The notes under the pieces were generated by a model, which ran no database searches, was not told where the DNA came from, and saw only the letters and a program-made list of their open reading frames with translations. DNA of 64,000 nt. It comes from Diphasiastrum complanatum. Taxonomy: Eukaryota; Streptophyta; Lycopodiopsida; Lycopodiales; Lycopodiaceae. Each line of letters begins with the position of its first letter. Within the stretch, counting starts at the first letter, position 1. The stretch spans positions 15,772,270-15,836,269 of the forward strand of contig CM055114.1 in the NCBI GenBank assembly GCA_029204225.1, written 5' to 3'. Below are positions 30,471 to 64,000 of the stretch, piece by piece. A program made the translations under genes and the position numbers.

Positions 30471-31152
30471 TGTTAAAAATTCACAATTCTAGCTTGACTA
30501 GTTTTGGTCATATGACTTGTAAATAGTTAGATGGTCATGATGTGGCTTGTCACACGTGCCAAATAGCATAGGATTCCATTCATAAGGATGTTCTCAAGTA
30601 GACCTAAGTGTTAGAACCTTTGGAATGAGTCCAAATTATGCTTAGATACAAGGGAGAAAAAATAGGAGCTATTTTTGGTAATTTTTGCATTGTTGAGGGA
30701 TCTCCAAGATTCCAACCCTAACTTGGTAGGGATGAAAGATCCACCAAAATTAGCATTAGGGATAGGTTTAGGGCTACTCATACCTGCCCAAAACCGTGAT
30801 GGATCATGTATATATAGGTGATGATATCTCACCAAAATCAATCAAGCAATTTCATGTTTTTTCTCTCATAATGGTGCAATTGCTCTCTATGTTCATAATT
30901 GTTTGAGTACTTGTGATTACTAATGATTATAGGATTGAATGTAGGTCTGGTGTACAGTACTTAGACTGTGGGAGGCCGTACTTTCACACGTGTGAAGCCT
31001 TCTTCAAGGATTTGGGCCATTTAGTGAGGTTCAAGCATAGATTTTTGATGGATTTTGATGGTTCAACTTGTGCTAATCTTATGAAATCATAATCTATTGT
31101 TTCCCTCATCATTTCAAGTGTTTTAGGATCCTTATTTGCTGTAATTTTTACA
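30471..31152 (+). repeat. Element H 5' LTR (682 bp)
   Basis: Starts TGTTAAAAATTC and ends GTAATTTTTACA. A TATA-box-like TATATATAG lies at 30809-30817, and the 14-bp palindrome TTCACACGTGTGAA at 30983-30996. Confidence 0.96.
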
Positions 31153-31165
31153 TGGTATCAGAGCC
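31153..31165 (+). other. Element H primer-binding site (tRNA-iMet type)
   Basis: TGGTATCAGAGCC immediately abuts the 5' LTR. Confidence 0.95.
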
Positions 31166-31633
31166 TAAAGGCTGAAATGAGCTAAATCCTTGGTTTGCAT
31201 TCAATTTTATCACAATTTTTGATCTAAATCTTGTGTAGATTGGATCTTAGCATCTAGTATTGATTCTAGAACTCAAAGTGAGTCAAATACATTGGAGATT
31301 GGTGTTGTGTGACTTCATTTGCAGGTGTTTAGGTGTCTAAAACCAGAGGCAAAGTTGAATTCAATTCACATTACCAAGATAGCAAGTTTTGCTTGCTCCA
31401 AGCATTGATTTCTAAGCGAGTTTTGGAGGTGATTTCATAGAGAAGGCTTTCTAGCATTCAAGGAGAGGGAAGATCAGAGTTTTGGGGACTCTTCAAGGCT
31501 GTTCTAAGGTGTAGTAGGCACCTCCTAAAGTGATTTAGGTTCAGTCCAACCATAGCTTGACTTATGCACCAAATTAGATCAATTTTTCATCAATTTTGAT
31601 CATTTTTTGCTTGTGATTGGATAGTAGATTGTG
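31166..31633 (+). other. Element H untranslated leader, first part
   Basis: No ORF. The leader is split by element I at the target TTGCA and resumes at 37960, reaching the gag ATG at 38285. Confidence 0.85.
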
Positions 31634-31638
31634 TTGCA

Positions 31639-32501
31639 TGATAAATTTTACAGTTTTTAGGACAATAATGATTGTACTTTACAATCATAGAGAGTTATTG
31701 GTTGCTTAATCAATGAATCTATCAAGTTCTACACATTAGATCTTGATCTAGATTCACTACACTTGGATTTAAGCAAGAGCAATGGATCAACACATCATTT
31801 TTTAGTGAGAGCGGCTTCACACGTGTGGAGTACTGTCCACTGTACGGCCTGCACCTGAAACAACAAGTACAATGATACTAGATAGCAATCATGCATAAAA
31901 ATCACAAGACAAATGACTAGAAATCTCACAAAAGTGTAGAGTGCAAAAGTCTCATCAATTTTCTTAGCAAAATGATGATCCTTTTATGGATCAAGTACAT
32001 CCATGAGTCTGGTACAGTCCAGCAGGCCTTCACACGTGTGAAGAGTGCCACATCACTCATATCTATCCATTTGATCCATCCTTGATCCTTATCCAATAGT
32101 TGACCTTCTAGAATATGACTAAAATTCCAAAAAGCTAGTCTCCTAGAATATAGGAATATTCCCTACAAAATAGGATCTAAGAAAAATGGTCAACTCTTAT
32201 CTTCTAGTACTCTATACACACATGTGAACATCCACTTGCCATGTGGGAGCATTTACTCATGCACATGCAAGGAAAAGCTAATTTGTAGGTGACTAGTCAA
32301 CTTGACTAAAAACTAGTCATTTCATGTTCACACTAACTAGAATGATACAAAATCAATTTGGATATATACAAACATGAAAAGTACATCCTTTCACACATGG
32401 GAACATGCTCCACACGTGTGAAATCATATCATCAACATATTCTAATGTTTGATCAATATTTACATGAACCAATGTCAAGTGAGAAGTGACAATTTTCAAC
32501 A
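31639..32501 (-). repeat. Element I 3' LTR (left copy, 863 bp)
   Basis: On the plus strand it starts TGATAAATTTTACAG and ends CAATTTTCAACA. It holds three CACACGTGTG motifs (near 31818, 32031 and 32411). Confidence 0.95.
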
Positions 32502-32512
32502 CTCCTCCTCAC
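32502..32512 (-). other. Element I polypurine tract
   Basis: The minus strand reads gtgaggaggag just before the 3' LTR. The same 11 bases form the tract of element H. Confidence 0.9.
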
Positions 32513-32514
32513 TT

Positions 32515-35500
32515 CTAACTTGGCAAATCTAGTGTACATCTATCTACAATTCCAAGAGCATATCTTAACTTAAAAAATGGATCTTTGGACAATGGTTTGG
32601 TTAAGATATCAGCTATGCATTCGGATGATGGTACATGATGTAGTTGCACTTCCTTGGATTGTACCTTCTCCCTCACAAAGTGGTGAGCTATCTCAATATG
32701 CTTTGTTCTAGCATGGAAGATAGGATTTGAAGCAATTTGTTGAGAAGCTTGATTGTCACAAAATATGTAAGGGATCTCCTCGGCCTCTAGCACATGTAGT
32801 TCCATCAAGAGTCTTCTTAGCCATAAGAGCTCTTTGGTTGTTGAAGTCAATGCCTTGTACTCGGCTTCACAAGAAGATAGTGAGATTGTATCTTGCTTTT
32901 TGGAAAGCCAAGATATCACTCCTCCACAAAGAAATGTTGCAAATGCACTAATGGACTTCCTATCCATCTTGTCACCTGCAAAATCTGAATCCGAGTAGGC
33001 TCTCAAGTGCAAGTTAGATCCTTCATAAAGTATACCAAAAAATCTAGTACTAGAAACATATCTAAGTACTCTCTTGGCACTTTTCCAATGATGAATTAAA
33101 GGAGCTTGCATACTTTGACTCAACTTGCTTACACAAAAACTTAAGTCAGGTCTAGTGATGGTTAAATAGATTAGAGAGCCTATAAGCTTCCTAAAGAGAG
33201 TGATGTCCTCAAAGGATGCTTCATCACCTTCATTAGTTGCTTTCACAACATGCTCCATAGGGGTGTCAATCCCCTTACAATCTTTCATACCAAATCTTTC
33301 AAGAATGGAAGTAGCATACTTAGATTGACTTATGAAAGTACAATTGCTACTTCTAGACACTTCTATCCCAAGTATAAACTTTAGGAAGCCTAGATCTACC
33401 ATCTTGAACTCACTAGATAAGTCAACTTTTACTTTGCCTATGCCATCATCATCATTTCCTGTCATAATGATGTCATCAACATAAAGAACCAAAATGATGA
33501 TCTTTCCTTCATTACATTTGAAATATAAAGAAGGTTCATAAGCACTTAGTACAAAGCCAAGGGAATAGAGAAAATCATGCAACCTAGAGTACCAAGCTCT
33601 AGGTGCTTGCTTCAAGCCATATAGGCTCTTCCTTAAGTAGCACACCTTTTGCTCCTCACCAATCTTGATGAAGCCCTCGGGTTGCATCATGTAGATTTCC
33701 TCTTCTAAGAAGCCATTCAAGAAGGCATTTGTCACATCCATTTGGTAGAGATCCCATTTGAACAAAGTAGCAATGCAAATGATTAATCTAATAGTTACAA
33801 GCTTAGCTACAGGTGCAAATGTTTCTTCATAATCCAATCCTTTTATTTGAAGAAATCCCTTAGCAACAAGCCTAGCTTTGTATTTACTAATAGATCCATC
33901 TTGATTGTACTTAATTCTATAAATCCACTTACATGCAAGTGGTTTCTTTCCTCTTGGAAGATTTACAAGATTCCAAGTATGATTTTCTTCTAATGCATCA
34001 TACTCTACTTGCATTGCATCTCTCCAAACTTTAGATTTACATGCTTCTTCAAAAGATGATGGTTCTTCAATCAATGTAGCTAAAAAAGAGTAAGAGGTAG
34101 AAGATGTAGAGCCTTCCTTTTGCTTTCCCTTGTCCACATAGGTAAGCCTTGAGGGCTCGGCCTTGCTCCTTGATGATCTTCTTGGCCCCTTTTGACTTGG
34201 ATCCAAATCTCCATCCTCGGGTTTGTCATGATCCTCCTCGGGTTTGTCAAGATCCTCCTCGGATTTGTCAAGATCTTCAATGCACAATGGGTTAGATCCA
34301 TTTGACAAGCTCTTAGCAAATTGTGACTCATCAAAAAGTACATCCTTGCTTACCTTTACTTTCTTGGATGTAGGATCATATATCCTATATCCCTTGCTAT
34401 TTTCTCCATAGCCAACAAAGATTCCTTTGAAGGAGGTAGCATCTTCTTTCCTTCTAGTCTCCAAAGGAATGTGTACATAACAAGTACATCCAAAGATCTT
34501 AAAATATTTTACATTGGGTTTCTTATCAAACAAGGCTTGATAAGGTGAGATCCCATCTATAGCACTACTAGGAAGTCTATTACACAAATAATTAGCACAT
34601 GTTATGGCTTCTCCCCAAAATGAGATGGGAAGTGATGCATCAAGCCTCAAGGACTTTGCACACTCACATAGACTCCTATTTTTCCTCTCGGCCACCCCAT
34701 TTTGTTGAGGGGTGTAGGAACAAGTGTATTGTAACTTAATACCATTGATCTCACAAAAGTCTTTCATTTTATTGGAGGTGTACTCTCCTCCATTATCACA
34801 TCTTAGTGCTTTGATAGAAGTACTAAGTTGTTTCTCTACTAGAGACTTGAACTTAATGAAAGCTTCATAAACAAGATTTTTCTTTGATAGTAACTCAATC
34901 CATGTGAATCTAGTACAATCATCTATAAAAGTTACATACATCAAGGCACCTCCATTACTTGCATGTGAAAAACTATGTACATCAGAATGTATGAGATCCA
35001 AGGGAGAGAGAGATCTTGATGAAGATTTCTTGTAAGAAGATTTGTGTGACTTTGCAAGGCCACATGCCTCACACATTTTTCCACACTTCTTGAAAGCTCT
35101 TGGTAGGCCGAGAGCTAGTTCCTTGCTTGCCATTGACTCCATAGATTGAAGATTAGGATGGCCTAATCTCTTATGCCAAAGCTCCACTTGAGTTAGCTCC
35201 TCCCTAGCCAAGTTCACACTTTCACTTGCAACATTAGCATCCAACTTGAAAAGTCTACCTTGCTTAATGCCACTAGCTATGCACTTATCATTTTTCAAGA
35301 TGGAACAAACTCCATTCTTGAAATGTACATCTAGTCCATTGTCCATTAATTGTCCTACACTAAGCAAGTTTCTTGAAATGGTAGGAACATACAAAACATT
35401 ATCTAGATCTATCCTTTTAGATGTGCCTAAACAAAGAGGTATAGATCCTATGCCATCTATCTTGCATGCTTGATCACTAGCAGTGTATATTGACTTCTTA

Positions 35501-36495
35501 GAGTCATTACAAGATAGAAGAGTAGAAAAATAATGCTTGTTAAAGGACATGTGGGAACTAGCCCCACTATCTATCCACCATGTGTCTTGACTTGAAGTTG
35601 GTGTAGATGCAACCATTAAGGATGTGTTGAATCCATCCTCATATTCTTCCTCTTGAGCAATGTTCCCTTGATCTCCTTTGGCTTGTTGATTCTTCTTCAA
35701 GTAGCATTCTGAGGCAAAGTGTCCTTTCTTTCCACAAAAGAAACACTTTAGTTTTGCCTTGTTCTTCACTTTGCCTTTGGAGGTAGATCCTCCATTCTTC
35801 ATCTCGGCCTCCTTGCCTTGATTTTTCTTGAATGGATTTTGCTTTTTCTTGCCTTTAGATGTAAAGTTAGCTTTCTCCTCTCCTCCATTAAGTGACATGC
35901 TATCCATTCTTGTCTTGAGGTGTAGAAGCCTACTCTCCTCGGCCACAAGAACATTGTGCAACTTTTCAATGGATGGAAGAGAGTCTTGAATGGCAAATGA
36001 TTGGACTAAGTTGGTAAACTCATCACTTAGACCATTCAAAATGATTTGTACTAGTTCTTGATCTTGGATCTTCTATCCTATTGCACTTAACTCCTTGTTA
36101 AGAGATTTGATCCTAAGAACATACTCTTGTCCACTCTCTCCACTTCCTTTCATGCTTTGGAAAACTTGATTTCTTAGCATGAGGATTCTTGAAGTATTGT
36201 TGGATTCATAAATGCTCTTTAATGAATCCCAAGCCTCTTTGGATGAGGTACAAGAAGACACCTCTTTCAAGAGGTCATTGCATACATTTAACTTTATGCA
36301 ATGTAGAGCTAATCTTGCTCTCTTCTTGTATTTGGCTTGTTCTTGGGGAGTTTGAGGCTCTTCCTCTACTCCTTGAACTATGTCATATAGATCATGGATC
36401 ACTAGGAGTGATTCCATTCTCACTTTCCAAATGGAATAATTTGTGGAAGTGAGTCTCTCACTTGATTCCATCAAATATCCACCCATGGATGACAT
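32515..36495 (-). pseudogene. Element I Ty1/copia Gag-Pol polyprotein with one in-frame stop
   Basis: From the ATG at 36495 the frame is 1327 codons including the stop, broken only by a TAG at 36075-36073. The related H protein has Glu there, so GAG to TAG is likely. Order: Gag (YSIWKVRMESLL near residue 25), CCHC knuckle ~250-263 (CFFCGKKGHFASEC), aspartic protease WWIDSGASSH ~305, integrase HKRLGHPN zinc finger ~437, and the DDE core with DLIHSDVHS, FIDDCTRF and DNGGEY at ~495-570. Then PQQNGVAERKNR, reverse transcriptase with FLNGFLEEEIYM and YVDD near 1003, and RNase H from AYSDSDFAGDK ~1164. It encodes everything for a copia replication cycle except for the nonsense codon. Confidence 0.95.
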
Positions 36496-37079
36496 TTTAG
36501 AATGAATGCTCTTTTAAAAATCACAAAGATTTTTGAATTTTAAAAGATCTATGAAGTGGCCTAAAGCTTACTAGAATGCCTATAGGCTTGTCTCTATCAA
36601 ACTAACACACAAGCTTGAATGATACTCAAAGATCTTACCAAAAATTTCTAGCTTTCACTCTCACAAAAAAAAAATTGCTTTACACTTTTCTTAGAGATTT
36701 CACTTCAACTAAGGATCTGAACAAATCAGCCTCTTAGATCTGATCTTAGACTCTAAAAAGAAATGCTTCAATGATCCAAAACACTATTTGGTCATAGGCA
36801 TTAGTTAGAATGAATCTAGATCAATACTATGCTTCAAAAAGCACCAAAAATGAACTAGTATTGTGATTTTGGGACCAAAAAACACAAAGTAACTTGAATT
36901 GAAAGTTGCTGTACGGTTTCACACGTGTGAAAAGTACATACACAGCCTCCAAGTCGTTTTGATCCAAATGATTACAAGCTATCACTCTAGAAGAACTCGC
37001 CCTCACTAGTATTGGCCAAAAAACAAATTTTGCCAATGATCTTTACAAGATTTATGATTCAATGATCACTCTCTTACTT
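36496..37079 (-). other. Element I untranslated leader
   Basis: No ORF of note. It contains one full TTCACACGTGTGAA palindrome at 36918-36931, outside the LTRs. Confidence 0.85.
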
Positions 37080-37092
37080 AGCTCTGATACCA
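37080..37092 (-). other. Element I primer-binding site
   Basis: The minus strand reads TGGTATCAGAGCT, abutting the LTR that starts at 37093. Confidence 0.93.
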
Positions 37093-37954
37093 TGATAAAT
37101 TTTACAGTTTTTAGGACAATAATGATTGTACTTTACAATCATAGAGAGTTATTGGTTGCTTAATCAATGAATCTATCAAGTTCTACACATTAGATCTTGA
37201 TCTAGATTCACTACACTTGGATTTAAGCAAGAGCAATGGATCAACACATCATTTTTTAGTGAGAGCGGCTTCACACGTGTGGAGTACTGTCCACTGTACG
37301 GCCTGCACCTGAAACAACAAGTACAATGATACTAGATAGCAATCATGCATAAAAATCACAAGACAAATGACTAGAAATCTCACAAAAGTGTAGAGTGCAA
37401 AAGTCTCATCAATTTTCTTAGCAAAATGATGATCCTTTTATGGATCAAGTACATCCATGAGTCTGGTACAGTCCAGCAGGCATTCACACGTGTGAAGAGT
37501 GCCACATCACTCATATCTATCCATTTGATCCATCCTTGATCCTTATCCAATAGTTGACCTTCTAGAATATGACTAAAATCCAAAAAGCTAGTCTCCTAGA
37601 ATATAGGAATATTCCCTACAAAATAGGATCTAAGGAAAATGGTCAACTCTTATCTTCTAGTACTCTATACACACATGTGAACATCCACTTGCCATGTGGG
37701 AGCATTTACTCATGCACATGCAAGGAAAAGCTAATTTGTAGGTGACTAGTCAACTTGACTAAAAACTAGTCATTTCATGTTCACACTAACTAGAATGATA
37801 CAAAATCAATTTGGATATATACAAACATGAAAAGTACATCCTTTCACACATGGGAACATGCTCCACACGTGTGAAATCATATCATCAACATATTCTAATG
37901 TTTGATCAATATTTACATGAACCAATGTCAAGTGAGAAGTGACAATTTTCAACA
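37093..37954 (-). repeat. Element I 5' LTR (right copy, 862 bp)
   Basis: Nearly identical to 31639-32501. Differences seen: a C/A change in the ccagcagg(c/a)attcacacg region, one 1-nt indel near 37578, and an A/G change near 37635. Confidence 0.95.
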
Positions 37955-38284
37955 TTGCATCCTCATTAAGTTCCATTTAGATCTTTTACAAGTGATTTTG
38001 GAAGTATATTAGGTTGCTGAAATTCACTCTTGATCAGATCATTTGGAAGCTTTAATGTTCTTTATAGAAAGAGGGGCAATTCTACTAGTATTGTCTACTT
38101 CAATCAAGCAAGTGCATTGTTTCTAGTATTCTATGATTTGATTTTGTTAGAGATCATTCTTAGATCTTTATAGGAAGTCTATTACTGATCTTTTCAGGTC
38201 CCTAAGAAGTGGGATAAGGTAGACCTTCAATCAAATCAATAGAAGTAACCTTCATTTGTGTCAAGTCCTTGATTAGGAGACTAG

Positions 38285-41200
38285 ATGGCATCTATAAATG
38301 CATATCTTTTGGATACTAATGAAAGGCTCAACAAAACTAACTATTCCATATGGAAAGTTAGAATGGAATCTATCATGATCATGCAAGATCTGATGGAAAT
38401 TGTAAATGGTAAGGAGGGTGAACCTATTCATCCTCAAGAAAAAGCCAAATACATCAAGAGGTGCAATGTTGCACTACATTGCATAAAAATGAATGTTGCA
38501 AATGAACTCTTAAGAGAGGTAGGAGATTGCACTTCAGCTCAAGATGCTTGGGAGACTTTGCAAAAGGTCTATGAATCCAAGAACCAAACTAGAATGTTAG
38601 CTTTGAAGAATCAAATCTATAGAAGCTATCAAAAGAAAGGAGAGAGTGCCCATACTTTTGTCCTAAGAGTAAAAGAATTGAACAAAGAGCTAGCCTTTAT
38701 AGGTGAACCTATCAAGGATGAAGAGCTTGTTCAACTCATATTGAATGGACTAAGCTTTGAATTTGACAATTTGGTTCAGGGATATGCAATTATGGGTAAG
38801 CTACCCATACTTGAAGAACTCCAAGGCACGCTCATGGCCGAGGAATCAAGAAGGAGCCAAATGCAAGAGAGGATGGATAGGCTTTCCATCCAAGGTGGAG
38901 ATGACCAAGCTCTCTTCACCAAAGGCAAAGGCAAGTCCAAAGGCAAAGGATCAACATTCAAGAAGTCTACAAAGCTTGAGGATCAAGAAGGACCCCCAAA
39001 GGCATCTCCATCAACCACCAAAGTCAAGAAGGACAAATCAAAGGTGAAGTGCTACTATTGTAGCAAGATGGGGCATTATGCCTCGGAATGCTTCAAGAGG
39101 AAGCAAGATCAAAGCCAAGCCAACATGAGCAAAGAGGAGGAGGAGGAGAGTTCACATGAGGACTCTCTCATGATGTCCATATTTTCTTCAACAAGATTCA
39201 AAGGAGAAGATCCTTGGTGGATTGACTCGGGTGCTAGTTCATACATGACTAGTAAAAGGGAGTTTTTCTCTTCTCTCTTATCTTATGATGGACCTACAAA
39301 GTCTATCTATACAGCAAATGATGAAGCTTGTAAGATTGAAGGAGTTGGTAGCATTCCCCTTTGCTTAGGATCTTCCAAAAAGATCAACATAGAAGGTGTT
39401 TTGTACATTCCTACAATAACAAAGAATCTACTAAGTGTTGGCCAAATGGTAGACAATGGTTTCAATGTTGACTTTGCTTCAAATGAATGTTCATCAAGAA
39501 GAAGGGTAAGATAGTGGCTAAGGGCACTAGACTTGGCAAACTTTATAAGCTGGATGCATTTGTGGATACTAATGTTGTCATGTTGGCCGAGAAGAGCAAG
39601 ATATCTACCTTTACTTTATGGCACAAAAGACTTGGACATGTCAACTCGGGTTCCATGGAGGCTATGATCAAGGAGGAGTATGCTTTAGGCCTACCAAGGT
39701 CTATTGGGAAGGAAGACAAGGTTTGTGAAGCTTGTGCCTTATCCAAGGCACATAAGAAGGTGTTTCCTAACTCCATCACAAAGTCATCTCATCCTCTTGA
39801 ACTCATACACTCGGATGTGCACATTGCTAGCACCAAATCTAATGGAGGTTCATCCATGTTTTTAACCTTCATTGATGACTACTCAAGATATTGTTGGGTG
39901 TTCTTACTTTCCTTCAAGTCTCAAGTATTTGATACTTTTGTAAAGTTCAAGTTGTTTGTGGAAAAGCATCATAATCATAGCATCAAGATTCTTAGAAGTG
40001 ACAATGGTGGAGAATTCATCTCCAATGAGTTCAAGGCCTTTTGTGAGGAGGAAGGGATCAAGAAAGAGACTTCTTGTCCTTACACTCCTCAACAAAATGG
40101 AGTTGCTGAAAGAAGGAATAGAACATTATGTGAATGTTCTAAGGCTTTAAGATTAGATGCTTTTTGCCCAAATCCTTTTGAGGTGAGTCTCTTGTATGTG
40201 CAAACTACTTGATGAATAGGGTGTCTTGCAAAGCAATTGAAGGCAAAACTCCATATGAGATGTTGTATGGAAAGAAAACCAATCTTAATCACTTGAAAGT
40301 TTTTGGGTGTATATGTTATGTGCATGTGCCATTGGAAACAAGAACCAAGGAGGATCCATCTTCCACAAGAGGGATCATGCTTGGATATGCAAGCTCAAGC
40401 AAGGGCTACAAAGTCTATCTCCCATCCTTGAACAAATTTGTTGTTTCAAGGGATGTCATCTTTGATGAACGTCATATGCATATGCTTGAAGAAGGCTCAA
40501 GTGCTCCAACAATCAAGAAGAAGATGGCCGAGGAGCAAGATCTTGGTTTTGAGGAGGAGCTCATGGAGGAGCAAGCACCAAACCCACCTATCACACCAAG
40601 GAGATCTTCAAGGGCAAAAGTGGAGCCATCAAGGCTCACATATCAAGGCAAAGGACAGCAAGTCGAGGGTATATCATCCACTTCTTATGCTTTATCTAGT
40701 TTTGAAGAACCGTCTAATGTTGAAGATGCATTGAACTCCAAAGAATGGTATAAAGCTATGTTGGATGAGTATGATGCCTTGATTGAGAATGAAACTTGGT
40801 TGCTTGTTGAGAGACCTCAAAGGAATGTAATAGGATGCAAGTGGGTCTTCAAGCTTAAGTTGAATGCAAATGGGAGTGTTAACAAACATAAAGCAAGATT
40901 AGTTGCAAAAGGTTATGCTCAAGAGAGAGGGATAGACTATGAGGAAACTTTTGCACCCGTGGCCAAGATGGTCACAATAAGACTAATCATTGCACTTGCA
41001 TCACATTTTGGATGGATTCTATGTCAAATGGATGTCTCTAATGCTTTCTTGAATGGTTTTTTGGAAGAGGATATCTATATGGAGCAGCCACAAGGGTTCA
41101 TCAAGCATGGAATGGAGAACAAAGTATGCCATCTCCAAAGAAGCATCTATGGCTTGAAGCAAGCCTCGAGATCTTGGAATTCAAGACTACATTGCTATCT

Positions 41201-42250
41201 TATTTCACTTTCTTTTGTTCAAAGTGAATATGATCCCACTCTTTACATTAAGTTTGATGATGTTGGTATTGTACTTTTACTCATTTATGTAGATGACATC
41301 ATCATTAGTGGAAATAGTGTTGATGGTATTGAAAAAATCAAGATAGATCTATCCTTAGAGTTCAAGATGGTAGATCTAGGGTGTCTTCACTTCATCTTAG
41401 GCATAGAAGTACTTAGAGGGTCTGATTTTATCTTTATAAGTCAAGTAAACTATGCTCAAAGTCTTTTGAAGAAGTTTAAGATGGAAGTATGCAAAAGTGT
41501 TGACACACCAATGGAGCAAGATGTAAAAGTGCCAAATGAAGATGATGAAAGATCCTTCATGGACATCACTTTGTTAGGCAACTTATAGGTTCCTTAATGT
41601 GGATCACTATAACTAGACCAGATCTTAGCTTTAGTGTATGTAGGTTGAGCCAATCCATGCAAAAGCCATTGAATATCCATTGGAAAAAGGCTAAGAGGAT
41701 TCTAAGATACATCTCGGGTACATTGGATTTTGGGATTCTATATAGAGGAGATGTGATTAACCTTCATGCATTTAGTGATTCAGATTTTGTAGGGGACAAG
41801 AGGGATAGGAAATCAACAAGTGCCTATTCAACTTTCATAGGAGAAGGTGTGGTTTCATGGCTTTCAAAAAAGCAAGAAACTATATCTCTATCTTCAACCG
41901 AGGCCGAGTACAAAGCTTTGACAACCACTACAAAGGAGGTACTTTGGATCAAGAGATTATTGGTGGAACTAAAGATCATGGATTCAGAGGAGGCACCAAT
42001 CATCTACAATGACAATATATCAGCCCAACACCTTGCATCTAACCCAATCTTCCATGCAAGATCTAAGCACATTGAGATATGCCATCACTTTGTGAGAGAA
42101 ATGGTGCAAGCCAAGGAGATTGGTTTGGAGCATGTTCCAAGCAATGAATGTGTAGCTGATCTACTTACTAAACCACTTCAAAAGACACCTTTTATGAAGT
42201 TTAGATCATCACTTGGAGTGATTAGTAAAGCAATGATTGAACCAAGCTAG
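38285..42250 (+). pseudogene. Element H Ty1/copia Gag-Pol polyprotein with three frameshifts
   Basis: Segments 38285-39514, 39487-40212, 40209-41588 and 41597-42250 form one polyprotein over three frame changes (near 39495, 40190 and 41575). Domains in order: Gag (YSIWKVRMESI), CCHC knuckle (CYYCSKMGHYASEC), protease WWIDSGASSYMT, integrase HKRLGHVN, FIDDYSRY, DNGGEF and PQQNGVAERRNR. Reverse transcriptase follows (MDVSNAFLNGFLEEDIYM, YVDD), then RNase H (AFSDSDFVGDKRDRKS, HARSKHIEICHHFV). It is closely related to element I. Each break looks like a single-nucleotide indel. The copy cannot make full-length Gag-Pol by normal translation. Confidence 0.94.
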
Positions 42251-42253
42251 ATA

Positions 42254-42264
42254 GTGAGGAGGAG
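42254..42264 (+). other. Element H polypurine tract
   Basis: gtgaggaggag directly precedes the 3' LTR at 42265. Confidence 0.9.
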
Positions 42265-42946
42265 TGTTAAAAATTCACAATTCTAGCTTGACTAGTTTTG
42301 GTCATATGACTTGTAAATAGTTAGATGGTCATGATGTGGCTTGTCACACGTGCCAAATAGCATAGGATTCCATTCATAAGGATGTTCTCTAGTAGACCTA
42401 AGTGTTAGAACCTTTGGAATGAGTCCAAATTATGCTTAGATACAAGGGAGAAAAAATAGGAGCTATTTTTGGTAATTTTTGCATTGTTGAGGGATCTCCA
42501 AGATTCCAACCCTAACTTGGTAGGGATGAAAGATCCACCAAAATTAGCATTAGGGATAGGTTTAGGGCTACTCATACCTGCCCAAAACCGTGATGGATCA
42601 TGTATATATAGGTGATGATATCTCACCAAAATCAATCAAGCAATTTCATGTTTTTTCTCTCATAATGGTGCAATTGCTCTCTATGTTCATAATTGTTTGA
42701 GTACTTGTGATTACTAATGATTATAGGATTGAATGTAGGTCTGGTGTACAGTACTCAGACTGTGGGAGGCCATACTTTCACACGTGTGAAGCCTTCTTCA
42801 AGAATTTGGGCCATTTAGTGAGGTTCAAGCATAGATTTTTGATGGATTTTGATGGTTCAACTTGTGCTAATCTTATGAAATCATAATCTATTGTTTCCCT
42901 CATCATTTCAAGTGTTTTAGGATCCTTATTTGCTGTAATTTTTACA
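42265..42946 (+). repeat. Element H 3' LTR (682 bp)
   Basis: Same length and ends as the 5' LTR. The palindrome TTCACACGTGTGAA is at 42777-42790. Confidence 0.96.
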
Positions 42947-56195: not shown

Positions 56196-57064
56196 CTTTG
56201 ATCAACATCAAGGAATTTCCTATCATCAACAAATCATCCATGAAAATGGTCAGTATCACAAATCCTTTCCTACTCTTTTGATGTAGACATTATAGTCTGA
56301 TTGAGTAGGATTGAAGTCTAGAGACTTCAGAAGACCATCAAGCCTTTTGTACCAGGCTCGTGATGCCTGTTTTAGACCGTAGATGCATCTCTACAATCGA
56401 CAGACATATTGTCTGTTGTTGGAGACTTCATAGCCTTCAGCTTGCTTCATGAAAATTTTCTCCTCTAGGTCTCTATGGAGAAAGGCTATTTTCATGTCAA
56501 TCTGGTGAATTTCTAGATTGTACTGTGTGGCGTATGCAAGGAGCAATCTTATGCTTGTCATCTTGACCATGGGCGAATATGTGTCGAAATAGTCGACACC
56601 ATATCTCTGCATCTAGCCCTTCGCGACAAGCCTTGCTTTGTAGTGGCCAATGGTGCCATCTGATTTTAGCTTCTTCTTGTACACCCATTTGCAGTCGAAT
56701 ACTTTTCTATTTTTTGGCAATGGCTCTAATGTCCATGCCTCGTTTCGCCTCATCGACTCGATCTCTTCTGACATTGCCTGTTTCCAGAATTTTTCCACTA
56801 GACTCTGGATAGCTTCTTGATATGTAGCTGGCTCTTCTGTGAAGCTGCAGTACTCAAAGCACGTGTCTTCACTCCATTGAAGATTGTCAAAATAGCAGTC
56901 TGGAGGTCTTCTTTGTCTTGTTGACCTTCGAGGTTTGTTTCTTGTTCGTGGGGTTGATTCTCTGTCTCCTGCTGCTCTGGAGTCTGGGGTCCTGCATTCT
57001 GATTTGATGACTATCCTCGATCTCCCTATTGAATAGGCAGCAGTGTGAAGATCTCATGGCCTCT
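56196..57064 (-). pseudogene. Copia element D, reverse transcriptase part
   Basis: Reading leftward: NEAWTLEPLP, CKWVYKKKLKSDG, HYKARLVAKG, YSPMVKMTSIRLLLA, IDMKIAFLHRDLEEKIFM and MDDLLMIGN. These are the copia RT blocks, with Met in place of Val/Tyr-side residues at the DD box. Several stops are present. The 3' RT, RNase H and LTR are lost at the junction with E2 at ~56195. The split from the integrase half at 57064 is due to element C. Confidence 0.85.
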
Positions 57065-57711
57065 TGTGAAAAATACAGATCCTAAGTGGATCTAAACTCC
57101 AAGATCATTGGCTTGAATGCTTGCACTCCAAACTACATAAGCTAGGAATTGGCAACACATTCTATGCTACCTAGAATGCAAAGAACTTGATCAAAAAGCA
57201 TTTATCACAAATGGAAACTTCCATAAACATCAAGTGCGGCCCAAAATAGCATTATACAGTCCATAATACATCAGCCTACCACTTTTGGAAAGCACCTAAG
57301 ATCATACACACAAAGCTTGAACTCAATCACTACACAATGCCAACAATGGAAGGAGAACCCAATAGAAAAATCTCTCATTAAGCAAATGAATACAATGGAT
57401 CTGCTCCAACCTGTTTCTCCACGGCCTACCTGCTATATATAGTTGAGAGAGATGACTCTCTCTCCTCTCTCTAGACCCTCCTTACCTAAAATATGCCCTA
57501 TATAGGTAAAATTGGCATATATGTCCAAAATACATGAAAATGGACTCATTTCGAAGGTCTTGAAGTTTGACACTTCTTCATACTGAAAAAATACACTTAC
57601 TAAAAATATCTAGACCTGTTTCACACGTGTGAAAAGTCATATCCTAAACTATGTGCCATTTTTAGCAATTTTGGCCTAAAACTAGACAAGGAAATGTTGA
57701 CAATTTTCACA
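57065..57711 (-). repeat. Element C 3' LTR (left copy, 647 bp)
   Basis: The plus strand starts TGTGAAAAATACAG and ends CAATTTTCACA, so the ends form a TGTGAAAAT/ATTTTCACA inverted repeat. It contains a TATA-like CTATATATAG (57433-57442) and TTCACACGTGTGAA (57620-57633). Confidence 0.96.
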
Positions 57712-57721
57712 CTCCCTCTTC
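57712..57721 (-). other. Element C polypurine tract
   Basis: The minus strand reads gaagagggag, abutting the 3' LTR. Confidence 0.85.
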
Positions 57722-57724
57722 AAC

Positions 57725-60700
57725 TTAACTTGCTAGTTTTACAACACTACTTTGTTCCAACTTAAGAATGATCTCCATCATCAGAATAGATCTCTTCTCA
57801 AGGATCCTAATATGTACAAAATAGGACACAACATAATTGATATAGATAATAGTGTCCATATAGGATGCTTCACTATTTCTTACATCAATTTTACATAGAA
57901 TCATAAAAATGGTACATGTAAAAGAACATAGAATCTCAATTAATGAATTCCTCCATGTATCCATCTCTGGTTTCTCTGTAAAATAGCAGCAAACAAGTTG
58001 TAAATGAAAGTGATCAACAAGTGTTTGCATGCCTCCTCCACATTTCACTATACATATAGTGAATGCAACATGTATCTCCATGAATGAACTTCCATCACCA
58101 CCTTGCCTTTGTAGATCTTCAATCCATGAAAGCCTTTGAGTGAATGAATGCCAAAAAGATGTGTTCCCTACTCCATTTGAATGACCAAAACCTGAACTTG
58201 AAATACTTGAAGTACCTCCACAAGATTTGCACACAACGCTTGATCCTACAATGTCAACAAGTTGCCAATTTGCCAACACTAGAATACTAGATCTTGAACT
58301 TTGTTCAAAAGAAAACATATTGACCACTTCAATACCTTTCAAGATCTGAATGAATTCATGTACTTGATCATACAAACCAGCAATGATAACTATTCCATCT
58401 CCAAGATCCAAAGGATGCAAAACTATGGAACTAGTTTTATTGAAATTTGACAATTTCAACACATTGACATAACAATGTTCATACATGAGATTAGGCAAGT
58501 GAGGTAGAGTAAGAAGACACTTCCTTGCAGCTCCAAAGACCTTACTTGAACCTTCAAGAACCTGTAAAAACAGATCCAAAATGCCTTGACCATTTGTCTC
58601 TTCTTTGATGCTTTTCACTAGCTTCGAATTGCCACTTGTCTCTTGGTGTTGATGAAGCAATCCAAGATCAACCTCTTGATCTTCCAATAAGACATCAAAG
58701 ATCTTGCATATGTGAACATCTTCAGATCTGAAACTCTGAAGATACTCCCTCTCAAACACATGATTAAGATCCCACAAGATCTCATCAATGCTCAAATTTG
58801 ACCCTTCACTATAGTTAGTGAAAACAATGCCACCATCATAAACCAAAAGATAGATTCCAACATTTCCATTTAACATGAAGTAGAGTAGGTGAAGATGAGT
58901 ATCAAACCTAATCAAAACAGCCCTCTTGAGTTCATAACAAACCTCAATAAGCTCACCAATGATATCTCCCTTGCCTTGAAGAAGTTGCCACTTGAGTTGC
59001 TCCATGTAGTCTTCTTCAACCAACCTTTTGCCATTTTGACCATGAATGAACAATCCACCAAAATCATAGAATGCTTTGAGTTGATGAAGAGATGTTAGAT
59101 CCATGCTTTGGATCTTCCCAAGAACCACTCTTCCATTGCCCTTTCCTTCACAAGACTCCCTCTTAATGCTAGCACCACAAAAGTTAGAAACCTCCCTCTT
59201 GATAGTTGCACCATAAGAAGTAGAAGACTCTTGAATATTAGAAGCCAAGAAAAGAATCCTTAGTACCTTCAACATAAGAGTGATTGAAGTACTCTCTCTT
59301 TTCAAACATGAACTTCTACTCAATGATTTAGGTAATGAGTCATATGATAATGATTCTTCCTCACTATCGTTCATAAAAACATCATTCAAAGTACATCCTA
59401 CTTTGAACACTTCACATACTTCTCTTCCTTTTGACTTGTGATCTCCCTCACCAAGTCTCATGATAGAAACCTTTGATCTACTCTTTTTATGAAGAAATGT
59501 GACACCACTTGTTGCACAAATGATTTTATCACAAAAAGATGTAAAAGAACCATTTCCTTCAAGCATGCTCAAAGCACCATCATCTTTTCCCACATGATTA
59601 CATACATCAATATGAAAAGAATTAGAAGAACAACCATCTTCTTGCAAAGAATGACACTTAGCATCTCCATCTTTTTCCATATGAACAAACAAGTCATTAG
59701 CAACAATCACTTCCAAAGAAGAATCTTCATCAACTCCATTGATGAAGTTAGCTCCTTCCTTACCTTTTCCATTTTTGCACTTGCCATCTAGCACCATTGA
59801 AGAACCAACAAGCCTTGGAAGTCCATGAGTAGAAGAGTACAAACATGATGCTAATTTAGCTCCACATGACTCCATATGACTAGTAGGTAACACTAGTGCA
59901 TCTTCAAGATCCAATGGATCCAAAAAATTGACCATAGATTCACCAAAGCTTGCCAAGTTAGCACAACAATTATCATCTCCAAGAAGTACATTAGATCTCA
60001 ACCTAGATCTAGCATTTTGTTTCTTATGGCATTCATTTGCAAAATGTCCTTTTATCCCACAATAAAAGCACTTGAACTTTGACTTATTGTTCTTAGTAGA
60101 AGAGGAAGAGGAAGAGTGATCATCATGATCAAAGTTACCACCTTTGGACCATTTCCCTTTGCCTTTACCTTTGCCCTTGAATTTGCCTTTTGTGAAGAAA
60201 GCCTCTTCACCTCCACCTTGCAAGGATGCACCATCAAGCTTTGATTGCAACCTATGTTCTTCAGCCAATAAGATTTCTTGCAAGTCAACCACACTTGGCA
60301 AGACTCTTTGAATGGCAAAACTTTGCACAAGGTTAGCATGTTCATTTAGCAAACCATTCAACATAACTTGGACTATTTCACCATCTTTTATGTTCTCATC
60401 AATGCATGCTAAATCATCACTTAGGGACTTAACTCTCAAGATAAATGCATGAGCACTTTCACCCTCTCTTTGCCTACTAGAAAATATTTGTCTCCTTAGG
60501 GTCAATACCCTATATGTGGACTTTGATTCAAAGAGCTTCTTTAAGGCATTCCATGCCTCACTTGCACTTTGACACTTTCCAACTTCCTTGAGAAGTTCAT
60601 TTGTAACATTCATTTTAATGATATGAAGAGCCCTTTTGGCCTTCTTATCAAACCTTTGTTGCTCTTGAAGTGTGAGAGGTCTCTCTTCAATTTCTGCAAC

Positions 60701-60817
60701 TATGTCCATGAGTTCATTCAACTCAAGTAAGGACTCCATCCTCACTTTCCAAGTAGAGTAGTTTGATGAACTCAACCTTTCACTAGACTCTAGCATGATC
60801 CCACCATTGGAAGCCAT
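57725..60817 (-). CDS. Element C ORF: copia-type Gag (N-terminus) fused to a ~760-residue domain of unknown function
   Basis: The frame is 1030 codons, uninterrupted, with the ATG at 60817. Residues 1-~240 are a Gag of the copia UBN2 type (LESSERLSSSNYSTWKVRME, close to the starts of the H and I Gags). A basic Gly/Lys stretch follows, then a CCHC knuckle at ~250-263 (CFYCGIKGHFANEC). After that, where copia elements have protease (D-S-G-A-S), none is found, and no integrase, RT or RNase H motif occurs to the end. The unknown part has a Ser/Cys/Gly-rich first half with a small repeat (GATIKRE/GASIKRE), a hydrophobic-rich second half, and a strongly apolar run near 958-977 (IEILCSFTCTIFMILC). 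The C-terminal ~130 residues resemble a frame in element K. The absence of stops fits recent insertion. I cannot assign a function to the unknown part. Confidence 0.92.
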   Translation of the reverse strand: MASNGGIMLESSERLSSSNYSTWKVRMESLLELNELMDIVAEIEERPLTLQEQQRFDKKAKRALHIIKMNVTNELLKEVGKCQSASEAWNALKKLFESKSTYRVLTLRRQIFSSRQREGESAHAFILRVKSLSDDLACIDENIKDGEIVQVMLNGLLNEHANLVQSFAIQRVLPSVVDLQEILLAEEHRLQSKLDGASLQGGGEEAFFTKGKFKGKGKGKGKWSKGGNFDHDDHSSSSSSTKNNKSKFKCFYCGIKGHFANECHKKQNARSRLRSNVLLGDDNCCANLASFGESMVNFLDPLDLEDALVLPTSHMESCGAKLASCLYSSTHGLPRLVGSSMVLDGKCKNGKGKEGANFINGVDEDSSLEVIVANDLFVHMEKDGDAKCHSLQEDGCSSNSFHIDVCNHVGKDDGALSMLEGNGSFTSFCDKIICATSGVTFLHKKSRSKVSIMRLGEGDHKSKGREVCEVFKVGCTLNDVFMNDSEEESLSYDSLPKSLSRSSCLKRESTSITLMLKVLRILFLASNIQESSTSYGATIKREVSNFCGASIKRESCEGKGNGRVVLGKIQSMDLTSLHQLKAFYDFGGLFIHGQNGKRLVEEDYMEQLKWQLLQGKGDIIGELIEVCYELKRAVLIRFDTHLHLLYFMLNGNVGIYLLVYDGGIVFTNYSEGSNLSIDEILWDLNHVFEREYLQSFRSEDVHICKIFDVLLEDQEVDLGLLHQHQETSGNSKLVKSIKEETNGQGILDLFLQVLEGSSKVFGAARKCLLTLPHLPNLMYEHCYVNVLKLSNFNKTSSIVLHPLDLGDGIVIIAGLYDQVHEFIQILKGIEVVNMFSFEQSSRSSILVLANWQLVDIVGSSVVCKSCGGTSSISSSGFGHSNGVGNTSFWHSFTQRLSWIEDLQRQGGDGSSFMEIHVAFTICIVKCGGGMQTLVDHFHLQLVCCYFTEKPEMDTWRNSLIEILCSFTCTIFMILCKIDVRNSEASYMDTIIYINYVVSYFVHIRILEKRSILMMEIILKLEQSSVVKLAS

Positions 60818-61975
60818 GATTCTAATGTTTCTTCAACTTTTAGGTTTTGTCCTAAAGCACTTAGCACTCACTTTTCTCTCAACAAATGATAGATAAAGAG
60901 ATCTATGAAGATTTAGGACCCTAAAACACTTCTATCTTGAACCTAGATGGTTTCCAAGCATAGAAAGGAAGATTGAAACACATGCAACACTTTGCACACA
61001 CTAAGAATGGATTACAAAATCAAACCAACCTGAACACACTCTTGCTTAAGCTCTCAAACTTTCCAGCAAGTGACCAAATCAAGTTATGGTGTGAAGAGTT
61101 ACTTGCATTCTTAGAAAATACCCAAAACTAGGATGCCAAGATTACCTAGTAATGAACAAACTTGATCAACATATGATCAACACACTAAGATATTGATTCA
61201 ACCTATAAAACCACATGTAAACCACACTTCTAAAAGTTTATAAACTCCAGCAAGTGATAAATACAAGATTTAGAGGTGAATGAATGAGCACACTTAGTGA
61301 ATCACAAGACTAGCTTCACTATCTTGTCAAATCTTGGTGTTTAGATGTAGATCTAAGATCACTTCACATGAGAATGTTCCTCAACCTGTTAAGAACCTGA
61401 AAACACACTTGCATAATGGTTAACACCTTCCAGCAAATGCTCCAATCAAATTACATAAGGAGAGTTACTTACATGCTCAACAAAGTACACCAAAAATTAT
61501 GCCAAAATTGATGACAATCTTTACAATATGCTCTTCACAATGGAGCTTGCAATATGTTCACCCAAAAAGGGGATCTTTCATCCAAATGGGAGCTTTGCTC
61601 AGCCTTTAGGAGAATTACAACTCACTCAAAAGAGCATTTGTCATCCACTTAAGGAGAAGTTTCATCCACTTAAGGAGAGTGTTCATCCAAGAATGGAGAT
61701 TGTCAACAATAGGATTGAAAAGAACATTGTTAGTATTGAATATGCACAAGCCTCACAATCACAAATGATTAGGTGTTATGATCTGATCCAAAATAGTTTC
61801 TTTTCAGCCTCTGATCTTCAATAGACCTGAAATATGCTTTTGATCCACAAGTTCAACTCACAAAACAAAGGTTAGTAAGATTTGATCAACAAAGCAATGC
61901 AAAATCATGCTAGAACTTGATCAAACATCCAAATATCACCAAAAATGGAATACTTACTATGAATAGAAGCCAACC
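60818..61975 (-). other. Element C leader with internal repeats
   Basis: Imperfect repeats of ccagcaa(g/a)tg...caaatcaa...agagttactt occur near 61072 and 61432, with a partial one near 61247. A short tandem array of ttcatccacttaaggaga lies at about 61636-61690. The plus-strand ORF there (61528-61824) reads through this repeat and is not considered a gene. Confidence 0.7.
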
Positions 61976-61988
61976 AGCTCTGATACCA
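61976..61988 (-). other. Element C primer-binding site (tRNA-iMet type)
   Basis: The minus strand reads TGGTATCAGAGCT, immediately adjoining the LTR start at 61989. Confidence 0.93.
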
Positions 61989-62635
61989 TGTGAAAAATAC
62001 AGATCCTAAGTGGATCTAAACTCCAAGATCATTGGCTTGAATGCTTGCACTCCAAACTACATAAGCTAGGAATTGGCAACACATTCTATGCTACCTAGAA
62101 TGCAAAGAACTTGATCAAAAAGCATTTATCACAAATGGAAAATTCCATAAACATCAAGTGCGGCCCAAAATAGCATTATACAGTCCATAATACATCAGCC
62201 TACCACTTTTGGAAAGCACCTAAGATCATACACACAAAGCTTGAACTCAATCACTACACAATGCCAACAATGGAAGGAGAACCCAATAGAAAAATCTCTC
62301 ATTAAGCAAATGAATACAATGGATCTGCTCCAACCTGTTTCTCCACGGCCTACCTGCTATATATAGTTGAGAGAGATGACTCTCTCTCCTCTCTCTAGAC
62401 CCTCCTTACCTAAAATATGCCCTATATAGGTAAAATTGGCATATATGTCCAAAATACATGAAAATGGACTCATTTCGAAGGTCTTGAAGTTTGACACTTC
62501 TTCATACTGAAAAAATACACTCACTAAAAATATCTAGACCTGTTTCACACGTGTGAAAAGTCATATCCTAAACTATGTGCCATTTTTAGCAATTTTGGCC
62601 TAAAACTAGACAAGGAAATGTTGACAATTTTCACA
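61989..62635 (-). repeat. Element C 5' LTR (right copy, 647 bp)
   Basis: Same length as the left copy and nearly identical. The palindrome TTCACACGTGTGAA is at 62544-62557. Confidence 0.96.
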
Positions 62636-64000
62636 CCTCTTTCGTCTTTCAGTCTAGGGAATGTGGACTCGTCGAACTTCACATCTCTGATCGAAACAAC
62701 CTTCTTCATGGTTGGATCGTAGAGTCTGTACACATGTGTTCCGTTCGAGTAGACGACCATGATTGTTTGTTCGGATTTGTCGTCGATCTTGCTTCTCTTT
62801 TCTTTTGGAATGTGCTTGTATGTTGCACATCCAAACACTCGTGCGTATGACAGATCAGGCTTTCTACCTGTCCACATCTCGTACGGTGTTTTGTGCTCCA
62901 GCGTTGTCATTGTTGATCTATTCTGCAGATGTACTGCTGCAGCTATTGCTTTGGCCCATAATTGGCCTGACAATTGAGCCTGTGCCATCATGCATCTGGC
63001 TCCTTCGACTAGCGTTCTGTTTTTTCTTTTTGCCACGCCGTTGTATTCTGGTGTGTATGCAGGAGTGAACTGGTGTTCAATCCCCTGTTCTTCGCAGAAT
63101 CTTGAGAATTCTGTGCTTTTGTATTCACCTCCATTGTCAGATCTAAGGATTTGTATCTTTTTTGAAGTGTGTTGCTCTACGAATGCCATGAACTTCTTGA
63201 AAGAATCAAATACTTCGGATTTCGTCTTCAAGTAGGAGATCGTGGTCATTCGACTGTAATCATCTATGAACTTTAGAAAATATTTTGAACCTGAGAGCAA
63301 TCATCGGTCCACACACATGAGAGTGGACAAGCTCAAGAACTTCTTTGGCTCTTTTTCCTTCGTGTGTAAATGGACTCCGATGTTGCTTGCCTTTCTGACA
63401 AGCTTCGCAGAACTCAGCCTCGGGCCTTGATATTTTGAGACCTGTGACAATGTCCTTTGTGCTCATGTCGTACAGGCTCCGCATGTTCAGAGGATACAAT
63501 CTGAAATGCCAGAGCTGATCTTTGTTTTCTGAAGCATTTAATATGCTATCAGAGTTGCTAATTATTTTGGCTTGGTAGAGGTTTCTTTCTCTGCATCCGA
63601 CCGTCAACAACTTGTTTGTTGTTTTCTCGATCATACAACAAGTGCTGCCATCGAACAAAACTCGAATGCCTAGATCTGTCATCTTGGAGACAGACAACAG
63701 ATCTTTTCTGAATGAGGGCACATAGAGTTCTCCTGGTAGCTCTGCTTGGCTTGACAGTGTTCGTAGCTATAGAGAGCCCATGCCTTTGACATCGTGTCTG
63801 CTTCAATCGCCTAGAATCACCGTTCTGTCATTTTTGAGTTTGCAAAAGTTGATCAAGATCTTCTTGTTGCAGGTTATGTGAGATGTTGCTCCTAAATCGA
63901 TGACCACATCGTAATCATGTTTGGAGAAGCCTGTCGAAGCTTCGTCGAGTATCGTGAAAACTTCGTCACCTCTTTCTCCATCTTTAGATGATTCTGCAAC
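62636..64000 (-). pseudogene. Copia element D, protease-integrase part (continues past the window)
   Basis: From right to left: a protease motif VVIDLGATSH near 63900 (Leu in place of Ser/Thr), RKDLLSVSKM, and an integrase zinc finger in which the usual HxRxGHxN is altered to HFRLYPLN, with CEACQKGKQHRSPF. Then the integrase core: FIDDYSRM, RSDNGGEY and YTPEYNGVAKRKNRTL, then YEMWTGRKPDLSYARVFGC. Frame changes occur near 63270-63300 and 63730-63800. The frame runs into element C at 62635 and resumes at 57064. Confidence 0.88.

Follow-up and report, generated by a model that had tools for sequence, protein, structure and literature searches.

What is the long coding region that follows Gag in a copia-type retrotransposon in which the usual enzymes are not found, and how does such an element move? 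The question is raised by element X, which lies in a 64,000-nucleotide stretch of contig CM055114.1 of Diphasiastrum complanatum (the window, to which all positions without a contig name refer). A first-pass annotation of this stretch had described an intact open reading frame (ORF) of 1030 codons in which a copia Gag is joined to a large tail with no recognizable retroelement enzyme, and had suggested that the tail is a retained protein with a role, for instance, in particle assembly, parasitism of helper particles or RNA selection. The explanation that we find rather probable is that X is a Gag-supplying, non-autonomous Ty1/copia element, the tail of which is partly derived from pol, with a frame kept open up to the polypurine tract (PPT), and that it depends on a partner, here called family P, from the same genome.

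X is a complete copia long terminal repeat (LTR) retrotransposon on the minus strand (57065-62635). Its LTRs, which are of the TG...CA type, differ at 2 positions over 647 bp, and AGAGG is found on either side of the element; the insertion is young, in agreement with the first description of it as near-new. These paired LTRs, the 5-bp target-site duplication (TSD), a primer-binding site (PBS), a PPT and a copia-type Gag place X in Ty1/copia, while the protease, integrase, reverse transcriptase (RT) and RNase H of an autonomous member are not detected by Pfam. The 1030-codon ORF was confirmed, with an ATG start and a single terminal stop; it is the sole long ORF of X and ends 13 nt short of the 3′ LTR. 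The Gag with a CCHC knuckle that had been read in residues 1-263 is also borne out by Pfam, with Retrotran_gag_2 at residues 27-192 (9e-23) and zf-CCHC at 249-263 (E 0.0035, 17.8 bits, just under the curated cut-off of 20.8).

The profile search that had been proposed for the remaining 767 residues (264-1030) gave no Pfam match at E values up to 10. The same library detected Pol_BBD, rve, SH3 and RVT_2 in element H, another copia element of the window, and Pol_BBD, SH3 and RVT_2 in two scanned pieces of a third, element I. Thus, the statement that no retroelement enzyme is recognizable holds for profile searches, but a comparison of the tail with family P reveals an RT relic, as discussed below. 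A protein search with the tail found no homologue at E≤0.01 among 7990 scored candidates, the lengths of which were limited to 0.55-1.75 of 1030 aa, so that shorter host proteins could escape. In addition, 11 pattern matches in GTDB genomes gave 0 confirmed relatives, there was none in IMG/VR, and the eight weak matches among solved structures (E up to 10; best 0.043) all fell on the Gag part and none on the tail. The mean pLDDT of AlphaFold2 models was 31.7 for the tail alone and 32.4 with a three-row alignment, and neither model was taken to a fold search.

A chance ORF was rejected as the source of the tail. Its 761 codons from residue 270 to 1030 are open, while in 300 dinucleotide shuffles the longest open run was at most 182 codons, with about 50 in-frame stops. 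An antisense gene was rejected as well, as the longest ORF on the other strand is 100 aa and the five other frames hold 53-118 stops. Base composition per codon position is coding-like across the whole tail. Expressed in net bits per codon, this periodicity reaches 0.117 in residues 264-584, 0.072 in 585-1030 and 0.054 in 690-1030. Values for pol sequences are 0.061 (RT-RNase H of P), 0.052 (H) and 0.115 (protease-integrase of family Q, which also carries the tail), and the tail of Q has 0.056; low values are found in the Gag (0.034), leader (0.008) and LTR (0.000) of X. When neutral decay of the RT of P was simulated with stops rejected, only 0.02-0.03 was left at the identity now seen. The higher periodicity of the tail argues for past coding constraint, on the premise of a P-like ancestor that the simulation presupposes and with a measure that varies among regions.

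The candidate partner was found through the 3′ end of X. The source genome (G000; 1.7447 Gb in 5176 contigs) has 3689 occurrences of a 20-mer that spans the PPT and LTR start, against 0 in the control. The first 20 sites of this 20-mer on contig C1 were fetched, with 1.4 kb each. Upstream of the PPT, nine of these sites have an X-like tail (one of them belonging to Q) and eight have the RT-RNase H of a copia family, P, in which Pfam detects RVT_2. The remaining three comprise two fragmentary or diverged relatives of P (L047 and L051) and one site of neither type (L054). At the latter (C1:13381307-13382726), the same PPT-LTR start is preceded by 1.2 kb that resembles neither the X tail nor pol, which is possibly a further non-autonomous type.

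All 104 scored matches of P, the best of 162741 candidates, are 100% identical over 397 aa of RT-RNase H, and 73 of them have an open frame of exactly 1322 codons. In one copy (L040), the Gag ATG is in frame with RT-RNase H, and this frame has 1322 aa. To judge from its sequence, P looks autonomous and is a candidate helper; its middle region would encode protease and integrase, as the length of the frame and the organization of Q indicate. The Gag of P is identical to that of X at 253 of 254 residues (99.6%), and at the nucleotide level 1 of 764 positions differs. There is also one difference in the final 157 nt of the leader, and the 20-mer across the PPT and LTR start is identical in both.

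Comparison with P also brings out the origin of part of the tail. Residues 585-690 align in frame with the RT of P, with a Smith-Waterman score of 90 that is reached by 0 of 500 shuffles (maximum 49); tblastn and blastp of the tail give 1.7e-5 and 5e-5, respectively, which are E-values for very small subject sets. The core of this similarity, at residues 643-689, reads HLLYFMLNGNVGIYLLVYDGGIVF...IDEI...FE in X and HSLYFRLNENDITLLLIYVDDIIL...IDEI...FE in P. At the position of the catalytic YVDD of RT, X has YDGG, while Q and two older relatives (R58 and L056) have YDGD. On these alignments, residues 585-690 are RT-derived, with a dead active site. The X ORF ends in VVKLAS, collinear with the MLKLAS that closes P Pol, and the length of the tail (about 760 aa) is close to that of the pol part that it would replace. 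A DNA alignment of the tail with the RT of P (score 794, where 40 shuffles gave 608 at most) is gap-ridden and was not used. Because of the RT-derived residues 585-690, the tail is not simply the different C-terminal region that had been described.

X has multiplied in this genome. The genome-wide search for copies that had been called for yielded 579 occurrences of a tail-specific 30-mer, with 0 in the reversed control. All 32 scored DNA matches, among them X itself, span the full length (best of 5660 candidates), and all 59 scored protein matches to the tail have 99-100% identity, two of them with one stop (best of 19174 candidates). The 31 other copies that were fetched had been picked by closeness to X and are, therefore, biased toward young ones. 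The LTR pairs were compared in 30 of these 31 copies; over 635-647 bp they show 0-4 mismatches, and in one of them there are 6 gap positions as well. An exact 5-bp TSD is present in 25 (not in L016, L018, L022, L030, L036 and L038, as measured), and the ORF is intact in 27 (a premature stop is found in L020, L033, L035 and L037). Variation within the family, with 40 ORF variants in 20 sequences (L015 was excluded for length), is too shallow for dN/dS. Some copies of X lie in pairs 4925 bp apart (C7:54199575 and 54204500; C3:80790134 and 80795059), and some of Q in pairs 5868 bp apart (C12:1664619 and 1670487; C19:19455962 and 19461830), which suggests LTR-internal-LTR-internal-LTR tandems produced by unequal recombination.

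In family Q, the tail follows another front part. One locus (L060+L042) holds an unbroken stretch of 1073 codons with Pol_BBD, gag_pre-integrs, rve, SH3 and RVT_2 (2-101/244). After half of the RT, it continues as an X-type tail, with 76% identity. The switch point is the RT motif YMEQ, which is common to both, and the RT part that precedes it differs from P at 2 of 426 nt. All 105 scored matches of Q, the best of 16574 candidates, are 99-100% identical, five with one stop in the match and 100 without; an open frame of 1347 is found in 73, four of which include a read-through stop. Q is itself a young family, so that the same tail follows unlike front parts in two families that have both amplified. 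In R58, an old relative (L058+L061; C1:17361981-17365450), Gag and a protease are followed by X-like sequence from residue 269. As the protease lies there before an X-like tail, X may have lost this segment by deletion; the same order, together with a protease dN/dS (omega) of 0.08 against Q by maximum likelihood, indicates that a Gag-protease-tail ancestor probably existed.

If X depends on P, its cycle can be outlined as follows. Protease and integrase would be gone from X and its RT/RNase H no longer functional, and its tail would descend at least partly from the copia Pol polyprotein. X would still supply RNA and Gag, the latter as the Gag-tail protein or in shorter forms, and both could co-assemble with the products of P in shared particles, given the nearly identical Gag. 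P would then furnish protease, integrase and RT/RNase H in trans for the processing, reverse transcription and integration of X, so that X is probably mobilized by P. Template switching between co-packaged RNAs would account for the shared Gag and for the mosaics formed by X, Q and P. The least sure step is the translation of the tail as an extension of Gag with a loosely constrained protein role. Most likely, it would fill the place of Pol in the polyprotein or particle, and the tail is probably a loosely constrained substitute for it. The roles first suggested, in assembly, parasitism or RNA selection, are speculative but compatible with these data.

Whether the tail is retained as a protein depends on how it has evolved. 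Between X and Q, it has accumulated 132 substitutions (about 10% nucleotide divergence) with 0 stops, where neutral simulations give a mean of 4.5, and a single indel of 12 bp without any frameshift. At the LTR start, X and Q are separated by 49 substitutions and two indels of 1 bp, a contrast drawn from one pair with few indels. To judge from this comparison, the frame is conserved. The dN/dS analysis across relatives, which had been proposed as a check, gave omega values of about 0.5-0.8, several of them compatible with 1. By maximum likelihood, omega between X and R58 is 0.23 (0.11-0.47) in Gag (residues 106-263), 0.82 in residues 264-584 and 0.70 (0.47-1.04) in 585-1030. For the tail, it is 0.72 (0.53-1.04) in X-Q, 0.76 (0.59-1.04) in X-L056 and 0.53 (0.30-0.93) in Q-R58, and for the RT-RNase H of P and L051 it is 0.32. 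In a four-taxon fit of the tail, a single omega is 0.75 (2dlnL against 1 of 4.05), with 0.60 on functional branches (2dlnL 5.83) and 0.92 on old copies; when poorly aligned parts were masked or L056 was dropped, the single omega was 0.64-0.70 (2dlnL 4.62-5.77). Compared with Gag, amino-acid constraint on the tail is thus weak and borderline. A retained protein is favored by the openness and coding-like composition of the tail, its presence in X and Q as young multi-copy carriers and the frame kept at this divergence, but the weak constraint speaks against it. Two outcomes had been named beforehand as refuting it, namely, a tail that aligns to decayed pol or to captured sequence and a dN/dS near 1. 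Each was found by half, because part of the tail is RT-derived and amino-acid constraint is weak.

Several observations weigh against a pol-derived tail that is retained in a P-dependent element. A pol origin is demonstrated for about 105 of the 767 tail residues; residues 264-585 and 690-1030 are no more similar to pol than shuffled sequences are (173 and 142 of 500 shuffles score as high), residues 575-614 alone are not significant against the RT of P (313 of 2000), and the RT core is weaker in its Q version (8 of 2000). A probability of 96% from hhalign was discounted as partly circular, as the Q row opened with 20 P-type RT residues. Some neutral X-Q simulations were also free of stops (minimum 0), and omega of the X-Q tail is not distinguishable from 1 (2dlnL 2.25). 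In the robustness runs, the same is true of the functional branches (0.68-0.69; 2dlnL 2.88-3.27), and there is no clear sign of faster drift in old copies (0.47 and 0.73) than in live lineages (0.69 and 0.68), contrary to the first fit; the difference between the live and the dead branches is, therefore, not robust. Finally, the LTR starts of P and X differ at 37 of 212 positions (17.5%). Because Gag and the leader end are nearly identical all the same, X and P are mosaics with a very recently shared Gag.

These points give room to other explanations. The tail could be decayed pol without any protein function, open merely through its youth and the chance retention of the frame in its ancestors, which we regard as unlikely. 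In effect, many NG86 estimates of omega lie near the neutral mean (in parentheses, with the number of 200 neutral simulations that were equally low): 0.62 in X-Q (0.67±0.13; 78), 0.75 in X-L056 (0.85±0.13; 48), 0.84 in Q-L056 (0.88±0.14; 86) and, in X-R58, 0.98 for residues 264-584 (0.80±0.19; 173) and 0.60 for 585-1030 (0.67±0.12; 54). The RT active site is lost, the matches of the older relatives R58, L056, L041, L043 and L052 to X are spread over more than one frame, and old and live branches do not differ clearly in the robustness runs. Nevertheless, mere decay does not readily explain the stop-free X-Q comparison, the periodicity as strong as that of working pol, the occurrence of the tail in two young families that are distinct and have long open frames or the single tree-wide omega below 1. 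In addition, other NG86 estimates lean below neutral, with 0.44 in X-L043 (7), 0.42 in X-L041 (13) and 0.43 in the Q-R58 tail (25), next to 0.19 for Gag in X-R58 (2) and 0.32 for the Q-R58 protease (0). Selection might also act on the frame only, the amino acids being nearly irrelevant. Long 3′ untranslated regions (UTRs) trigger nonsense-mediated decay (NMD) in plants, and a stop at the end of Gag, followed by a 3′ UTR of about 2.3 kb, would expose the genomic RNA to it, so that an open frame from Gag to near the 3′ LTR could be selected, for example, to evade NMD. The conserved frame with almost free amino acids and the end of the ORF 13 nt from the 3′ LTR would fit this idea. On the other side, the periodicity exceeds that of a simulation in which stops were already rejected, the single omega below 1 is not expected from it either, and a limited literature search, of titles and the beginnings of abstracts, showed no paper on it; we consider it quite unlikely.

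Alternatively, most of the tail (residues 264-584 and 691-1030) could be captured host or foreign coding sequence with a short RT relic, as the confinement of pol similarity to 585-690 and the strong coding periodicity might suggest. This is improbable in view of the RT relic and the C-terminal KLAS, both collinear with P Pol, and of a length near that of the pol part that would be replaced. The homologue, Pfam, GTDB and IMG/VR searches described above revealed no source for such a domain, and the tail of Q matched only TMEM18 in Pfam, at 0.085. A neofunctionalized pseudo-Pol, that is, a dead and fast-evolving RT descendant kept for a role in the particle and spread between families as a module, is a possibility, if a somewhat doubtful one. 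The tail, as an extension of Gag in X or of Gag-protease-integrase in Q, might then hold the place of Pol, recruit the RT of the helper or bias packaging, and it would be a module that turns a functional copia element into an RT-dependent partner. A dependent element with a partly pol-derived, loosely constrained tail remains the explanation that we prefer.

Features of element X and its surroundings in the window
Feature	Position	Strand	Basis or remark
5′ LTR of X, 647 bp, TGTGAAAA...TTTTCACA	61989..62635	-	self-BLAST and direct comparison with 3′ LTR
3′ LTR of X	57065..57711	-	self-BLAST and direct LTR comparison
TSD AGAGG, upstream copy	62636..62640	-	
TSD AGAGG, downstream copy	57060..57064	-	
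PBS TGGTATCAGAGC, directly 3′ of 5′ LTR	61977..61988	-	
5′ leader of X	60818..61988	-	final 157 nt: 1 position unlike family P
PPT GAAGAGGGAG, adjoins 3′ LTR	57712..57721	-	
1030-codon ORF, Gag and tail	57725..60817	-	intact in 28/32 copies, X included
Gag, residues 1-263	60029..60817	-	Pfam
CCHC knuckle, residues 249-263	60029-60073	-	Pfam
Tail part 1, residues 264-584	59066..60028	-	no pol similarity above shuffles; strong coding periodicity; omega 0.82 (0.53-1.30)
Tail part 2, residues 585-690, RT-derived	58748..59065	-	31-34% identity with family P RT
RT relic core, residues 643-689	58751..58891	-	Smith-Waterman 80 against shuffle maximum 55, 0/2000
YDGG at RT active-site YVDD position	58829..58840	-	YDGD in Q, R58 and L056
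Tail part 3, residues 691-1030	57728..58747	-	no RNase H similarity above shuffles; end VVKLAS collinear with MLKLAS of P Pol
Integrase-SH3 reading frame of another copia element, up to X insertion point	62641..63300	-	Pfam rve and SH3_retrovirus

The PBS of X is presumably of the initiator-methionine tRNA type. The same sequence directly follows the 5′ LTR of element I, and in H, where GTATCAGAGC follows the LTR boundary used, it is obtained with that boundary placed two bases later. The front part of I (LTRs 30471-31152 and 42265-42946) contains H (LTRs 31637-32511 and 37091-37965, minus strand) as a nested element, and together they occupy 30471-42946. Both are copia relatives, with Gags 46-50% identical to that of X. 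Among database proteins, the X Gag finds 27% identity at best, and the pol of H about 41% over nearly its whole length, pointing to a thin representation of this plant in the databases. Elsewhere in the window, a 257-aa ORF on the plus strand (1942-2715) resembles what we take to be a fragment of a plant CACTA-type transposase.

The value of this locus lies in its company. With a candidate helper, two dependent families and older intermediates all present in one genome, the transition from autonomous to dependent element becomes directly testable, as does the question of whether the enzymatically dead tail or only its frame is selected. In a limited search, mostly of titles and the beginnings of abstracts, no copia element of the make-up of X was found in the published literature, but elements that share some of its traits are known. 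TR-GAG elements are LTR elements that code for Gag without pol enzymes, as X does; in contrast to them, where Gag is the sole coding region, X has 767 further in-frame, coding-like codons. In barley, BARE2 has a disrupted gag, with its other genes intact, and relies on a sister family, according to the portion of a report available (PMC9744471). X resembles it in that the missing function would be supplied by a sister family, and it is its mirror image in that gag is intact and the pol enzymes are absent. For the wheat gypsy elements RLG_Sabrina, RLG_WHAM and RLG_Wilma, the same portion describes a "cooperative complex" in which an autonomous element is joined by semi-autonomous ones that encode Gag-Pro and by non-autonomous variants that have unique short proteins instead of gag-pro (PMC9744471). 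The pairing of a dependent with an autonomous element is common to that group and X. Nevertheless, those elements are gypsy and their unique proteins short, while X has Gag without protease, although R58 has the order Gag-protease-tail.

The closest precedent, as far as the accessible part of its description goes, is the centromeric gypsy element RLG_Quinta of wheat, which is non-autonomous and encodes Gag and DUF1, with RLG_Cereba as the autonomous supplier of pol; in that part, the authors give no hint of a function for DUF1 (PMC11302176). Like RLG_Quinta, X has a single ORF for Gag and a domain of unknown function, lacks RT and integrase, shows recombination around gag and has an apparently autonomous partner, as the P frame occurs in the same genome and shares its PPT and LTR start with X. 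Unlike X, which has a copia Gag, RLG_Quinta is of the gypsy/CRM type and centromeric, and its Gags are strongly unlike those of RLG_Cereba, whereas the Gags of X and P are nearly the same. Thus, Gag joined to an unknown domain has precedents in wheat gypsy families, as described in that part of the report, and, in contrast to DUF1, one part of such a domain can here be traced to RT.

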